Origin: Chloroflexota bacterium | Lineage (GTDB): Bacteria; Chloroflexota; Anaerolineae; J036; Brachytrichaceae | Length of the DNA stretch: 64,000 nucleotides | Assembly (NCBI GenBank): GCA_025354985.1 | Contig: JANXLU010000019.1 | Location: 62,001-126,000, forward strand | Direction: 5' to 3' | Shown: positions 55,274-60,875 of the stretch, piece after piece | Layout of the letters: each line of letters opens with the position of its first letter | Position numbering within the stretch: the first letter of the stretch is position 1 | The notes under the pieces: generated by a model | Databases searched by the model: none | What the model was told of the DNA's origin: nothing | Seen by the model: the letters and a program-made list of their open reading frames with translations, nothing else | Position numbers and translations under genes: made by a program

Positions 55274-55915
55274 TCATTTGGAGGACGTCGCGGGCCCACC
55301 GGGGAGCTCGGCATGCCGGGCTTTCGTCGTCTCAAGCAACCGTTCAAAGTAGGCGACCTGCATCCGCTTGGCGGCGTCCAGAATGCGCTGGGCCGCTTCG
55401 GCGTTCCCAGCCCGCAGCTCGGTGATCGACCAAATCAACAACGGCCGCATTGCGGCATTTGAAACACGCGCATAAAACAGGCTCTCCTCTTCGCTCAACG
55501 TGACTCCGTGTTGCGCGGCCACCTGTGCAATAAGCCAGCCCAGCCGCGCCCATACCAGCTTCTGAAACTGCTCGGTCAGCTTGGCCAGGGCGGAGCCCTC
55601 GCTGGCATTCAGGCTGATCGCGACATATCCCAGGTGCCCCCGACCGTAGGCAAAGATGTTGTCGATCAGCTGGGTGATCAGCCGTGCAGTTGAGCCATCC
55701 CCCGGCGCCCAATGTTGCGCCTCGGCATCCAGCGCGGCGAAGAAGCCTTGCGCATAACGACTCCCCACCGCCTGCAACAGCGACTCCTTGTTTGCAAAAA
55801 ACTGATACAGGCTCCCTATCGAAATGCCCGCCTGAGCCGCGATGTGATTGGTGGACGCGCGTTCATACCCCACATCCACAAACAGCTGCTCTGCCGCGTC
55901 CAAGATGCCGTCCAC
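55274..55915 (-). CDS. TetR-family transcriptional repressor
   Basis: 213 residues from GTG 55915. HTH: ILDAAEQLFVDVGYERASTNHIAAQAGISIGSLYQFFANKESLLQAV, a full TetR N-terminal domain. The C-terminal ligand domain is helical. The frame stays open upstream and reads like a genuine TetR extension (RPRLANLLRRDPQQERGQQR) to about 55990 with no ATG, GTG or TTG, so the true start may have been mutated or be a rare codon. The gene is divergent from the P450 remnant, and the operator at 56074-56110 lies between them. Confidence 0.85.
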   Translation of the reverse strand: MDGILDAAEQLFVDVGYERASTNHIAAQAGISIGSLYQFFANKESLLQAVGSRYAQGFFAALDAEAQHWAPGDGSTARLITQLIDNIFAYGRGHLGYVAISLNASEGSALAKLTEQFQKLVWARLGWLIAQVAAQHGVTLSEEESLFYARVSNAAMRPLLIWSITELRAGNAEAAQRILDAAKRMQVAYFERLLETTKARHAELPGGPATSSK

Positions 55916-56063
55916 CCGCTGTTGGCCACGCTCCTGCTGCGGGTCGCGTCTAAGCAGGTTGGCAAGCCGTGGGCGTCTGCCGCGTACCGGTCTTCCTGAT
56001 GCAGTTGTCGATTCTTCCGAAGTGATTGGAATACAGCTTACCCGACTTACTAAATTTTTACAC

Positions 56064-56092
56064 TTTACAAAGTGAGCAATTACTCGTATATT
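56064..56092 (+). promoter_or_regulatory. Promoter of the P450 gene
   Basis: TTTACA (56064-56069), a 17-bp spacer and TATATT (56087-56092). The first half of the TetR operator lies between the two boxes, so bound repressor would block RNA polymerase. Confidence 0.55.
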
Positions 56093-56110
56093 ATATGCGA
56101 GTAATTGCTC
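56074..56110. promoter_or_regulatory. Perfect 13-bp inverted repeat: putative TetR operator
   Basis: GAGCAATTACTCG (56074-56086), 11-bp A+T spacer, and its exact reverse complement (56098-56110). Each arm is itself a near palindrome (GAG-x-AATT-x-CTC), which suggests two repressor dimers. It overlaps both divergent promoters. Confidence 0.75.
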
Positions 56111-56117
56111 ATGTTAA
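56090..56117 (-). promoter_or_regulatory. Promoter of the tetR gene
   Basis: On the minus strand, TTAACA (56117-56112), a 16-bp spacer and consensus TATAAT (56095-56090). It overlaps the operator, which implies autorepression. Transcription would begin near 56083, about 170 nt before GTG 55915. Confidence 0.55.
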
Positions 56118-56131
56118 GGAACATCCTAATC

Positions 56132-56567
56132 ATGCAAACCACACTAGTTTCAAGTGACTCATCCGCCCGCCGCCCGGTGCGGGCTGCCAATAAAAAGAAG
56201 TCCCCGGGCCTCCTCATGCTCCGCAATGATTTGGTCGGTGCGCTCGATGCCGTATGGCAACAACAGGGTGATTTGGCGAATCTGCAGCTGGGACCGCGCC
56301 CAATGAAAATCATCTCAAACCCAGTGTTGGCGCGCGTTGCTGCTTGAGAAAAAGGCCACTTTGAACCGTGATGCGTATATTCCTTTCCTGACCGGCCCGC
56401 ACCTGTGCATCGGCAACTTCTTTGCGCTGATGGAAGGTCAGCTCCTGATTGCAATGATGGCCCAACGCTTTACCGTCCGTGAATTGCCTGGTCAGAATGT
56501 TGAGAAGCTGGCTACCATCACCATGCGCCCCAAGCACGGGCTCATGGTCCGGCTGGAGCGGCGCTAG
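56132..56567 (+). pseudogene. Cytochrome P450 remnant: N- and C-terminal ends joined
   Basis: From ATG 56132 (AAGGA upstream), ~65 residues match a P450 N-terminus: PGLLMLRNDLVGALDAVWQQQGDLANLQLGPRPMKIISNP. Near 56335 the sequence changes frame and jumps to the C-terminal end: LLEKKATLNRDAYIPFLTGPHLCIGNFFALMEG, with the heme-ligand Cys, then the last strands to 56567. Roughly 300 residues, including the I-helix and ExxR, are deleted. The upstream operator and promoter are still perfect. Confidence 0.85.
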
Positions 56568-56636
56568 TGGATTCATGCGGGCTTCAAATCTTTCAACCCG
56601 CAACCGCGCTGTTTGAGGGGTGCGCGGTCTCAAGAC

Positions 56637-56666
56637 ATGACTTATTTCGCCAGTTTGCCGTATACT
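56637..56666 (+). promoter_or_regulatory. Candidate promoter of the ABC exporter leader
   Basis: ATGACT (56637-56642), an 18-bp spacer and TATACT (56661-56666). Transcription would begin near 56673, giving a ~125-nt leader containing the leader peptide and attenuator described separately. Confidence 0.45.
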
Positions 56667-56675
56667 GATTCTTCA

Positions 56676-56711
56676 GTGCATTGGGCTAACATTAAGTCAA
56701 TTGGTTCTTGA
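56676..56711 (+). CDS. Possible 11-codon leader peptide of the ABC exporter operon
   Basis: GTG 56676 to TGA 56711 encodes MHWANIKSIGS. It starts within a few bases of the predicted transcription start, so it would be translated as a leaderless frame. Its last two codons and stop overlap the antiterminator arm GGTTCTT (56703-56709). No ribosome-binding site is visible. Speculative as a coding unit; the placement relative to the attenuator is the argument. Confidence 0.3.
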   Translation: MHWANIKSIGS

Positions 56712-56793
56712 CCATTTCTACCAAAACGCCTTGCCGACGCAACTCGGAAGTCTAAAAGAACCGCAGGTGCAACGCGTCTGCGGTTCTTCTTTT
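56703..56793 (+). promoter_or_regulatory. Attenuator: terminator with competing antiterminator arm
   Basis: AAGAACCGCAG (56756-56766) pairs with CTGCGGTTCTT (56778-56788), followed by CTTTT: a rho-independent terminator ending just before the ABC gene. GGTTCTT also occurs at 56703-56709 and can pair with the same AAGAACC (56756-56762), which would dissolve the terminator stem. The two folds are mutually exclusive, as in transcription attenuators. Confidence 0.6.
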
Positions 56794-56797
56794 CCCG

Positions 56798-58552
56798 TTG
56801 AACATCCCACTTGGAGACTATCTGAAATTATTGCGCGGATACCTGCGCAATGAGCGTGGTCGCGTGGCGCTGTTGGCACTGCTCATCATCTTGGGCATCT
56901 TCTTTGAGATCGCCAACCCACAGCTCGTGAGATTGTTTATTGATGAAGCACAGGCTGATGCCGATTACGCCAGGTTGGTGGGCCTGGCGGCGACATTTGT
57001 CGGGTTGGCTATGGTTCGCCAGATTATGGCGGTCGGCGCCGCGGTGCTGGGTGAGTCCGTGGGTTGGACCGCCACAAATGCCCTTCGCGGCGACCTTGCC
57101 GCACATGTGTTGGGTCTTGATATGGCGTTTCACAATAGCACGTCACCCGGCGCGCTAAATGAGCGGATTGATGGTGACGTCACCAACCTCGCCACTTTCT
57201 TCACACAAATGGTCATCAAGGTGATCGGCAATGGATTGTTGATGATCGGCGTGTTGATCGCGGTCGCGCGGGTGGATGCGCGCGTTGGGCTGGCAATCGG
57301 TGCGTTTGCGCTTATCACCATTGCGGTGTTGGTCCGCGTGCGCACATGGGGTATCCCGTATCAGGTGGCTAACCGCGCCCGATCCGCTGAGTTTGCCGGT
57401 TTTATTGGTGAGCGCCTGTCCGGTACGGAAGACATCCGCGCCCTAGGTGCGGTCAACCACACCATGTGGCAGCTCGACACGCTTTTGCGGGCGTGGTATC
57501 CGCACAACTGGCGCTCGGGCATGGTCTGGCTGGTCACCTTTTTTGTCACCGTCCTGATGTTTGCAGTCGGAATCACCGTGGCGTTGTGGGTGGGCTCTTC
57601 ACTGTGGCAGGCCGGGTTGATTTCGATCGGCACGGTGTATCTGATCTTTTCGTACACCGAAATGCTGCGCCGCCCTGTCAACGAAATTCGTCAGCAGGTC
57701 GAGGATCTTCAGCGCGCCAGCGCGAGTATCACCCGCGTTCGGGATTTGTTCGCGCTCAAGCCTGCGATTAATGACGACCAGGCCCGGCCCCCCGGCCCTT
57801 CCGTGCCATCGGCACCCACTGTCGCATTTTGCAACGTCACGTTTGCATATGAAGACGATGCGCCGGTGCTCCATGATGTCTCGTTTGAGTTGCCCGGTGG
57901 CGCCACTCTGGGGCTGCTTGGGCGCACTGGCAGCGGTAAGACCACCGTGGCGCGCCTGCTCACCCGACTGTATGAACCGAAACTAGGTGACATTTTGTTG
58001 GCTGGCGATTCGATGCGTCACCTGCCTTTGACTGTGCTGCGTCAACGCGTGGGCTTGGTCACGCAGGACGTCCAACTATTCAACGCCAGCGTGCGCGAGA
58101 ACGTGACATTGTTTGATGACCGCATCTCAGACGATGCGATTATGGGCGGGCTAAGCGGGCTCGAGCTTGGTGAGTGGTTGACGCGTTTGCCGGATGGGCT
58201 GGAAACTCGCCTGAAATCCGGTGGTGCGGGCATATCGGCGGGCGAGGCGCAACTGCTGGCGTTTGCGCGCATGTTTCTGCGCGCGCCCGGATTGGTGATT
58301 CTTGACGAGGCGTCCTCCCGATTGGACCCGGCAACCGAACGCTTGCTTGATGTTGCCACCGCCCGCCTGTTGCAAAACCGCACCGGGATCATCATCGCCC
58401 ACCGCCTGGCCACGGTGCAACGCTGCGATTACATTTTGATCCTGGATCATGGTCGGGTGCTTGAGTTTGGTCGCCGCCTCGATCTCGCACTCAACCCCGC
58501 CAGCAATTTTTACAGTCTGTTGCGTGCCGATCTTCACGAGGTGCTGGCGTGA
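56798..58552 (+). CDS. ABC exporter half-transporter (degenerate signature, catalytic Glu present)
   Basis: 584 residues from TTG 56798; CTG 56822 or TTG 56828, after GGAG at 56813, are alternatives. Residues ~15-310 are a six-helix ABC membrane domain. The ATPase has Walker A GRTGSGKTTV, Q-loop VGLVTQDVQLFN, a degenerate signature SAGEAQLLA in place of LSGGQ, Walker B LVILDEASSRLD with the catalytic Glu, and switch His in IIIAHRLATV. It pairs with the next gene, overlapping by 4 bp, as a heterodimeric multidrug-type exporter similar to BmrCD/LmrCD/TM287-288. A leader attenuator precedes it. Confidence 0.9.
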   Translation: MNIPLGDYLKLLRGYLRNERGRVALLALLIILGIFFEIANPQLVRLFIDEAQADADYARLVGLAATFVGLAMVRQIMAVGAAVLGESVGWTATNALRGDLAAHVLGLDMAFHNSTSPGALNERIDGDVTNLATFFTQMVIKVIGNGLLMIGVLIAVARVDARVGLAIGAFALITIAVLVRVRTWGIPYQVANRARSAEFAGFIGERLSGTEDIRALGAVNHTMWQLDTLLRAWYPHNWRSGMVWLVTFFVTVLMFAVGITVALWVGSSLWQAGLISIGTVYLIFSYTEMLRRPVNEIRQQVEDLQRASASITRVRDLFALKPAINDDQARPPGPSVPSAPTVAFCNVTFAYEDDAPVLHDVSFELPGGATLGLLGRTGSGKTTVARLLTRLYEPKLGDILLAGDSMRHLPLTVLRQRVGLVTQDVQLFNASVRENVTLFDDRISDDAIMGGLSGLELGEWLTRLPDGLETRLKSGGAGISAGEAQLLAFARMFLRAPGLVILDEASSRLDPATERLLDVATARLLQNRTGIIIAHRLATVQRCDYILILDHGRVLEFGRRLDLALNPASNFYSLLRADLHEVLA

Positions 58553-60354
58553 CCGCGACAAGTCCACGCAGTCTGAGCACGGCACAATTAATCTGGAGAT
58601 TGATGGGTTACCGGCCCTGGCTTTATTCTGGCAACGTGCTGGCCTGGAGCACCGTTCATATGGTTCCGCTGTTGCCCGGACTATTAAACCGCGAGTTCTT
58701 CAATACCTTGACTGGCAACGCCACGATGGGGCTAAGCTTGAACACGTTGCTCCTGGGCACGTTTGCTCTGGCGTGCCTCACCGCAATTACCGAGTTGTTG
58801 GGTGCCCTTGTGGATATTCCACACCGGTTTGTCACCGGCCATTTGCTGCGGCGAAATGTGTTTGGTCACATCTTTACCCGACCCGGTGCCCGTGCTATCG
58901 AGGGCTCCGTGGGCGATGTGTTTAACATTATCCGCGATGATGCCCGCACGGTGGAGGATCTGCTCAGTTGGGTTTGCGATGTGTCCGGCCAAATTCTGTT
59001 TAGCATCGTTGCCTTGATCATTTTGTTGAGTATCAATGCCCGCATGGCGCTGCTGGTCTTTGTGCCAATGATCCTGGTGGTGTGGGTTGCGCAGCGCGCC
59101 AACGATCGCATCTACCGTGCCAACGAAGTCAAACGCAATGCAGACGCCTCGGTGAGCGATGCGCTAAACGAGATGTTTGAGGGCGTGCTTGGCGTCAAGG
59201 TTGCAGGTGGAGAGGCGCGCTTGGTCCGACGCCTGGCCGCGCTCAGCGAGACCCGCAAACGCGCCGCGGTGCGCGCCAGCATCTTAAATTCGCTGCTGCA
59301 ATCCTTGTTTGGTAACACCGTGCAAGTGGGCACCGGTCTGCTGTTACTGGTAGCCGCCAGCCTGATGCAAGCCGGCACAAGTGCGTCTTTTACCGTGGGT
59401 GACTTTGCATTGTTTGTCTACTATCTGGGGTTTGTATCGAACCTAACCGTATTCTGGGGCCGCTTGATCGTGACCGTACAACAGTCCAGCGTGGCGCTGG
59501 ATCGAATGGATGGTCTGCTTCAGGGCGCTCCGAACTCGGTGCTGGTGCGCTATAGACCCCTGCCGTTGCGGCATGCGCTGGCCGCGGCAGTACCGGATTA
59601 CATTGGTGAGAGTGCGCCGTTGGCGCATCTTGAAACCCGAAAGCTGACCTGCGTGCATCCATCCACCGGTCAAGGTGTGCGGGACATCAACCTGACCATC
59701 CGCCGCGGCGAATACGTTGTTATCACCGGGCGGATCGGGAGTGGCAAATCCACCCTGGTGCGTGCGATGCTTGGGTTACTCCCGCTCACCGCAGGCGAAA
59801 TCCTGTGGAACGATAAACCGGTGGGCGACCCAGCAACGTTCTTTGTGCCTCCGCGTTGCGCGTACACGCCCCAAACACCCCGGCTATTTAGCCAAAGCCT
59901 GGAAGACAACATACGCCTGGGTGCGGCCGTCTCTGATGAAAAGCTGCGCAGCGCAGTGCGCCAGGCCGTACTCGAAGATGACCTGGCCGGGATGGAACAT
60001 GGACTCACCACGCGGGTCGGGGTGCGCGGCGTCAAGCTAAGCGGCGGCCAACAGCAGCGGGCCGCCGCTGCGCGGATGTTTGCCCGCTCCGCCGATCTGT
60101 ACGTATTTGATGATTTGTCCAGCGCGCTGGATGTGCTCACCGAGCAGCGGCTTTGGCAGCGGCTCGGTGATCTGCAGGGTGCAACATTTTTGGTGGTTAG
60201 TCATCGGCGCGCCGCACTTCAACGCGCCGATCGCATTATTCTGCTAAAAGACGGCATGTTGCACGCCGAGGGCACGCTGTCGGAACTGCTCGCGCAAAAC
60301 GACGAGATGCGCGCCATTTGGCGCACGGAGGATGGTGAAGCAAACAACCCGTGA
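58549..60354 (+). CDS. ABC exporter half-transporter (canonical signature, catalytic Glu replaced by Asp)
   Basis: 601 residues from GTG 58549, overlapping the previous stop (GTGA). Six membrane helices lie within ~20-320. The ATPase has Walker A GRIGSGKSTLV, Q-loop CAYTPQTPRLF, canonical LSGGQQQRAA, and Walker B LYVFDDLSSALD, where Asp replaces the catalytic Glu, and His in VVSHRRA. Together with its partner this gives one consensus and one degenerate ATP site, as in heterodimeric drug exporters. Acts in the cytoplasmic membrane to export an unknown hydrophobic compound. Confidence 0.9.
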   Translation: MTATSPRSLSTAQLIWRLMGYRPWLYSGNVLAWSTVHMVPLLPGLLNREFFNTLTGNATMGLSLNTLLLGTFALACLTAITELLGALVDIPHRFVTGHLLRRNVFGHIFTRPGARAIEGSVGDVFNIIRDDARTVEDLLSWVCDVSGQILFSIVALIILLSINARMALLVFVPMILVVWVAQRANDRIYRANEVKRNADASVSDALNEMFEGVLGVKVAGGEARLVRRLAALSETRKRAAVRASILNSLLQSLFGNTVQVGTGLLLLVAASLMQAGTSASFTVGDFALFVYYLGFVSNLTVFWGRLIVTVQQSSVALDRMDGLLQGAPNSVLVRYRPLPLRHALAAAVPDYIGESAPLAHLETRKLTCVHPSTGQGVRDINLTIRRGEYVVITGRIGSGKSTLVRAMLGLLPLTAGEILWNDKPVGDPATFFVPPRCAYTPQTPRLFSQSLEDNIRLGAAVSDEKLRSAVRQAVLEDDLAGMEHGLTTRVGVRGVKLSGGQQQRAAAARMFARSADLYVFDDLSSALDVLTEQRLWQRLGDLQGATFLVVSHRRAALQRADRIILLKDGMLHAEGTLSELLAQNDEMRAIWRTEDGEANNP

Positions 60355-60875
60355 CAAGCGTTTGCATGTTAAACCGCGGGGCGATAATCACGTATGTGAC
60401 ACCAACCTACACCTTGCGCGATGCGCACCCTGCCGATATCCCGAAATTGGTTACGTATCGCGTGCTGATGTTCGAGGAGATGGCCCGGCAGGCCGGCCAG
60501 ATGAACGATGCGGTCGTTATGGACCGGATGAACCGGGACTGTAACCGCATCATTTCAGCCGGCTTTGGCGCCGAGCATGTAGGCTGGCTGATCGAACACG
60601 AGGCGCGCCCGGTGGCCGGCGCAATGGTGTGGCTGCAGCCCTGGCTGACCACGCCAAAATATCCGGATGCAGTGCGTGCCTACCTGCACTCAGTGTATAC
60701 CGATCCCGCGCACCGTGGGGAGGGGTTGGCGCGCCGCCTAACCGAGCACGCAATGGAATGGTGCAAGGCGCATGGTCTCGGCTGGCTCCTGCTGCACGCC
60801 AGCGAGCAAGGGCGACCACTGTACGAAAGCCTCGGGTTTGAACAGGGCAACGAATGGCAGAAGGCTCTGACGTGA
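60351..60875 (+). CDS. GNAT N-acetyltransferase
   Basis: 174 residues from GTG 60351, overlapping the ABC gene stop by 4 bp; ATG 60366 or GTG 60395 are alternatives. It begins TYTLRDAHPADIPKLVTYRVLMFEEMAR. Motif A is YLHSVYTDPAHRGEGLARRLTEHAMEWCKAHG, and motif B is LLLHASEQGRPLYESLGFEQGNEW. It acetylates an amino group with acetyl-CoA. Its coupling to a drug exporter suggests it could modify the same compound; this is inference. Confidence 0.82.
   Translation: MTSVCMLNRGAIITYVTPTYTLRDAHPADIPKLVTYRVLMFEEMARQAGQMNDAVVMDRMNRDCNRIISAGFGAEHVGWLIEHEARPVAGAMVWLQPWLTTPKYPDAVRAYLHSVYTDPAHRGEGLARRLTEHAMEWCKAHGLGWLLLHASEQGRPLYESLGFEQGNEWQKALT

Follow-up and report, generated by a model that had tools for sequence, protein, structure and literature searches.

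The window analysed here, a stretch of 64,000 nucleotides from a Chloroflexota bacterium of the class Anaerolineae (family Brachytrichaceae; contig JANXLU010000019.1, positions 62,001 to 126,000), contains near its end two adjacent genes for the subunits A and B of an ABC exporter, preceded by a leader with a terminator-like hairpin. In translation, subunit A shows a canonical Walker B motif (LDEAS) together with a degenerate signature (ISAGEAQ), and subunit B shows the canonical signature LSGGQ together with FDDLS at the position of Walker B. As judged from these asymmetric ATPase sites with complementary degeneracy, the two proteins form a heterodimeric multidrug-type ABC exporter, in agreement with an earlier reading of the stretch from its sequence alone (the sequence-only reading). 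Matches of subunit A in the PDB include P-glycoprotein, BmrD (YheH) and TM0288. The TTG start of subunit A is not preceded by a Shine–Dalgarno sequence; it is supported by the N-terminus MNIPL, which is common to several orthologues from the same family. Because the gene for a GNAT acetyltransferase begins within the last nucleotides of the subunit B gene, the three genes, exporter A, exporter B and acetyltransferase, are likely to constitute an operon. The question pursued here is whether the leader regulates this operon by sensing the state of the ribosome.

The hairpin is built from the arms AAGAACCGCAG, beginning at 56756, and CTGCGGTTCTT, ending at 56788, and its full stem, AAGAACCGCAGGTGC-AAC-GCGTCTGCGGTTCTT, is with 15 bp longer than the sequence-only reading had it. 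With -20.2 kcal/mol (z -4.9) it was equalled in none of 200 shuffles and is thus far beyond chance. As had been claimed, it lies just before the exporter: it ends 9 nt upstream of the conserved TTG at 56798 and, therefore, transcription of the exporter must pass it. A main promoter downstream of the terminator had been named as a finding that would speak against the proposal, and a promoter-consensus scan revealed nothing promoter-like in the few nucleotides that separate hairpin and exporter start, which also leave no room for one. By its position the hairpin is probably a transcription attenuator at which termination is predicted to occur, and the predicted arrangement, an intrinsic terminator between promoter and gene, is that of bmrB-type systems. 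A role as the end of the preceding cytochrome P450 gene was considered and is unlikely, as the hairpin begins 188 nt beyond the stop of the P450 fragment and would still lie in the path to the exporter; unlike the exporter hairpin, the strongest terminator found at a gene end in the window (53512) abuts its own gene. An Rfam scan of 56000-57200 yielded chance-level matches only and neither a T-box nor a riboswitch, and no copies of the leader were found elsewhere in the same genome.

The sequence-only reading had further noted that the heptamer GGTTCTT occurs twice, once upstream and once in the 3' arm of the hairpin (56782-56788), and had regarded the upstream copy as an antiterminator that competes for AAGAACC in the 5' arm; the coordinates of all these elements, as well as those of the terminator and of the GTG 56676 frame, proved exact. 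When growing transcripts were folded from a start at 56637 or 56674, GGUUCUU/AAGAACC pairing reached a probability of 0.80-0.99 in RNAs ending at 56764-56780. The terminator took over at an RNA end of 56784, and the antiterminator dropped to at most 0.03 after the 3' arm had emerged. Removal of the leader to 56712 or beyond, which mimics a ribosome at the stop codon, abolished the pairing. In silico, the upstream heptamer is thus part of the dominant fold, which forms before the terminator appears. Comparison with shuffled sequences was less uniform. For the base of the arm, a register that was chosen after the fold had been seen, the dominant fold of truncated transcripts gave P 0.0075-0.01, and sequestration of the whole 5' arm gave P 0.03-0.15, in a test that is weak in so far as it also failed to separate most of the covarying leaders described below from shuffles. 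Other strong hairpins of the window showed no such upstream sequestration (P 0.17-0.78). Taken as a whole, the modelled folding is suggestive of an antiterminator.

Table 1. Features of the exporter leader and its surroundings (positions in the window) and related loci.
Feature	Position	Strand	Basis or remarks
Promoter-like site ATGACT-18-TATACT	56637..56666	+	9/12 consensus matches; prediction only
Candidate 24-codon leader frame with ATG start, MTYFASLPYTDSSVHWANIKSIGS	56637..56711	+	Open reading frame; GAGGGG about 16 nt upstream, poorly spaced
Leader frame from GTG, 11 codons	56676..56711	+	Same frame as ATG 56637; TGA 56709-56711
GGTTCTT, candidate antiterminator arm	56703..56709	+	Pairs with 56756-56762; overlaps leader frame end
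Hairpin, terminator 5' and 3' arms, 15 bp, 3-nt loop	56756..56788	+	Folding energy versus shuffles
U-rich tail CTTTT of terminator	56789..56793	+	Sequence; absent in G004 orthologue
ABC exporter subunit A	56798..58552	+	ABC_membrane and ABC_tran match; TTG start; canonical Walker B, degenerate signature motif
ABC exporter subunit B	58549..60354	+	Degenerate Walker B (FDD), canonical LSGGQ
GNAT acetyltransferase	60351..60875	+	Acetyltransf_1, 2.2e-13; overlaps subunit B end
TetR gene	55274-55915	-	
Near-perfect palindrome TGAGCAATTACTCG-N11-CGAGTAATTGCTCA	56073-56111		Between TetR gene and P450 remains
P450 remains, N-terminal-like fragment	56132-56347		No Pfam match
P450 remains, C-terminal fragment	56361-56567		p450 match 8e-10
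R1/R2 family members	L194-L243, L260-L272, L281-L320		Related loci
Weaker R2 match in the window's genome	G000:C80:22295-22453	-	
Weaker R2 match in the window's genome	G000:C81:38637-38850	+	

The interpretation that we favour, with a probability of roughly 0.48, is that the leader acts as a ribosome-sensing attenuator of the exporter–GNAT operon. By default, RNA polymerase would stop at the hairpin. During brisk translation, a ribosome on the short frame ending at 56711 would cover GGUUCUU, and the terminator would win. If a drug or another translation stress slowed the ribosome early in the frame, GGUUCUU would stay free, such that the antiterminator could form first and the operon would be read. 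The hairpin may additionally hinder initiation at the TTG codon.

Several observations weigh against this interpretation. As a plain heptamer, the antiterminator is close to chance, since 5.5-13% of shuffled leaders can form a helix with the 5' arm that is just as good. Convincing ribosome sites are present neither for the ATG nor for the GTG start. The promoter-like site predicts a transcription start near 56673; if it is used, the GTG frame, which is simply the 3' part of the in-frame ATG frame at 56637, would therefore be essentially leaderless. Transcription from further up would make the ATG frame usable, but its GAGGGG is too far away to be well placed. Conservation was found for neither of the leader peptides. 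The identity of the leader peptide is accordingly uncertain, and the version of the switch with an 11-codon GTG leader, exactly as put forward in the sequence-only reading, appears improbable. Finally, the leader does not score significantly against the class-wide attenuator model introduced below, and both the upstream GGTTCTT and the U-tract are absent from the one orthologue that has a comparable hairpin.

This orthologue came to light when relatives of the exporter were compared. Within the genus of the window (four genomes), relatives of subunit A are only distant (about 30% identical), and neither there nor in the family and order (28 genomes) was a close orthologue with the same leader found. 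The closest orthologues, 55% identical, reside in two genomes of another genus, G004 and G005, behind an ABC-F gene. In G005, the exporter gene overlaps the ABC-F gene, leaving neither spacer nor hairpin. In G004, the ABC-F gene and the exporter gene are separated by a short spacer, which contains a hairpin (z -6.7) that likewise ends at -9. The hairpins of G004 and the window are the two strongest start-proximal ones in 84 homologous and paralogous upstream regions, and near their bases both carry AGAACC/GGTTCT, a motif chosen after comparison of the two, while the inner stems differ and yet remain paired. The motif occurs in one place in the G004 assembly and in four in the window's genome, which is the control level; a repeated element was rejected on these counts, and because the motif is so rare the shared position of the hairpins is unlikely to be due to chance. 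The G004 leader contains neither a U-tract nor an upstream GGTTCT copy. On comparison of these sequences the hairpin is probably conserved between the window and G004, and the two-copy GGTTCTT switch is not. In two loci with the closest orthologues (L089 and L090, reverse strand), the exporter directly follows the ABC-F gene, with a stop/start overlap in L089. This adjacency hints that the exporter may share a role in protection from ribosome-targeting drugs.

Two other explanations have to be weighed on the basis of these data. The hairpin could be a fixed partial terminator, leaking at a constant rate and without regulated antitermination, that reduces expression of the exporter or keeps upstream transcription from reading through. 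The near-chance antiterminator heptamer and the weak leader frame fit this view, as does the fact that upstream terminators are frequent for co-directional genes in the class: in 21 control stretches, a terminator was located within 200 nt upstream of 16 of the 91 genes whose neighbor is co-directional and of 2 of 78 genes in other arrangements, the present exporter being one of the two, in a scan that did not call short P450 fragments as genes. However, 9 nt before a start and 188 nt past the previous stop is an odd position for a gene-end terminator, and the pre-terminator pairing is unusual among the strong hairpins of the window. We regard a fixed terminator as unlikely. Alternatively, translation or the stability of the RNA may be what the start-proximal hairpin chiefly affects, or it may serve as a binding site; the U-tract seen in the window would then be secondary. 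This explanation is retained because the hairpin is probably conserved and the two-copy switch is not: what persists is a hairpin based on AGAACC/GGTTCT at -9, outstanding in strength among the homologues and with its motif unique in the G004 assembly. It is nevertheless rather improbable, given that it relies on two cases and on a motif picked after their comparison, that G005 belongs to the same genus as G004 but has neither spacer nor hairpin, and that the window hairpin possesses a good U-rich tail.

Support for the ribosome-sensing attenuator at the level of the class came from exporters in other Anaerolineae. When 80 regions upstream of subunit A homologues, most of them 45-55% identical, were inspected, 26 contained a terminator with a score of at least 15 within 200 nt, compared with 1.3% of shuffles. 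In one family of these leaders (f27), eight sequences align and share three alternative helices: the first pairs the ribosome site with the end of the leader frame (92% of cells paired), the second pairs the end of the leader frame with the terminator 5' arm (100% paired, without two-sided changes), and the third is the terminator itself (100% paired, with two-sided changes). A covariance model, R1, was built from the f27 leaders and enlarged to R2. Among 52 leaders, two-sided changes were counted in 137 cells versus 38 in shuffles, a count that leans towards the structure because the alignment was fitted to it. Model R2 matches 97 of 396 Anaerolineae genomes at E <= 1e-4, and approximately 21 subunit A homologues have an R1 or R2 match upstream, weaker ones included. 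Characteristic features are a AGGAGGCGCAC ribosome site pairing with the end of a short leader frame and GGYGCA in the terminator 5' arm. In many of the leader peptides the C-terminus reads [PD]SRSAP[VIA][DN]R or a close variant. The codons for S-A-P hardly vary (AGT GCG CCT), as RNA pairing would predict; the arginines, in contrast, persist even though four or five different codons encode them, and for this reason the sequences point to selection acting on the peptide in addition to the RNA. Exporters of the class repeatedly occur with attenuators that combine a leader frame with covarying, mutually exclusive helices. The R1/R2 attenuators are well supported by covariation, and translation stress would be their trigger.

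The genes downstream belong to several families. Among 98 genes following R2 matches, 47 encode ABC_tran proteins (39 with ABC_membrane), at least 23 GNATs, 11 RsgA and 9 RIO1, with single cases of MFS and RtcB. With laxer settings, the genome of the window has two matches (E 5.6e-4 and 0.004), before a gene for an MFS-type transporter and before a GNAT-type gene; in its genus R2 precedes RIO-type kinases in G001 and G003, and in its family some matches precede ABC-F-type genes. When ribosomes become slow, these leader-ORF (open reading frame) attenuators may turn on the genes for ABC exporters, ABC-F proteins, GNATs, RsgA and RIO kinases. By the model test, the window leader itself is not a member: it scored 4.2 bits against R1 and 5.6 bits against R2 (E 0.24 in 1 kb). 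That it represents a rapidly evolving outlier within a large and as yet undescribed Anaerolineae translation-stress regulon is a doubtful prediction. Much the weakest of the alternatives is that the leader is an R1/R2 member that has decayed or diverged strongly and in which GAGGGGTGCGC, AGTGCATT and GGTGCA are remnants of the three pairing segments: gene family and class are shared, class members exist in the genome and genus, and 56667-56683 (GATTCTTCAGTGCATTG) locally resembles GATTCTCGYAGTGCGCC of other leaders, but a minus-strand match scores higher, the matching frame is shifted and interrupted by TGA, the AGGAGGCGCAC ribosome site is missing and the model aligns segments other than those of the noted resemblance.

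Other leaders were seen alongside. Upstream of some exporter homologues (family f35; L155, L162 and L168), a short frame, MRWRLFSG, is followed by a GCCCCGCATGT terminator; its R-x-R motif resembles those of known macrolide-stalled leaders. In Clostridium oryzae (L022) and Herbinix (L053), terminator-like hairpins with CCGCAGGT stems lie upstream of exporter homologues and behind short frames, two of them in L053 and two apparent ones in L022; L053 matches model R1 weakly (18.6 bits, E 0.08). These sequences provide hints of similar attenuators in Clostridia. In an Rfam scan of 20 related loci, the matches were at chance level or to eukaryotic and viral models with scores well short of the cut-offs.

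Among known systems, bmrB-bmrCD of Bacillus subtilis is closest. There, leader translation is needed and lincomycin-dependent read-through has been shown; bmrB itself is 162 nt long and carries the terminator within its coding sequence (PMC4191407). The window shares with it a predicted terminator and has a candidate competing antiterminator before a heterodimeric multidrug ABC exporter, with a short candidate frame that overlaps the putative switch. It differs in that the frame comprises 11 or 24 codons and ends before the hairpin. The logic proposed for the window corresponds to that of bmrB-bmrCD, as in the sequence-only reading, and the window would be an attenuator of the bmrCD kind if the drug response holds. 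It also resembles the ABC-leaders, attenuators predicted widely before ABC transporter operons and in several cases without a known sensor (Naville and Gautheret 2010; PMC2965389), in having a predicted attenuator upstream of such an operon; Chloroflexi were not found mentioned in that paper. The Escherichia coli upstream frame toiL senses several classes of ribosome-targeting antibiotics by ribosome stalling (PMC12121999) and is similar in that a short upstream frame is proposed as the ribosome sensor, but its effects are on translation initiation and on termination by Rho, whereas an intrinsic terminator is proposed here. With the R1/R2 attenuators the window has in common the class, in part the exporter family, and the combination of leader frame and terminator, but these have a clear AGGAGG ribosome site pairing with the leader-frame end and frequently an SRSAPVDR-like end, neither of which is present in the window. 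In the literature searched, largely without subscription papers, we found no description of such a switch in Chloroflexota, as the sequence-only reading had surmised, nor of the class-wide attenuators; the R1/R2 family is apparently undescribed.

Upstream of the leader, the remains of the cytochrome P450 gene lack the middle part and contain a frame break, indicating a probable pseudogene. The palindrome between these remains and the TetR gene overlaps promoter-like sites on both strands. It is likely to be a TetR operator, as predicted from its sequence, and the exporter may therefore be subject to a further level of control.

Most of the known cases in which resistance genes are controlled by ribosome sensing come from bacteria in culture, among them Bacillus, Streptococcus and E. 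coli. If the switch in the window works as proposed, the same logic would operate in the largely uncultured phylum Chloroflexota. The class-wide attenuator family supports the ribosome-sensing idea for the class and the gene family, not for the exact sequence of the window. Wider and better supported than the window switch, and located before many resistance-type and ribosome-maintenance genes, the R1/R2 family could guide the study of the antibiotic response of Anaerolineae.

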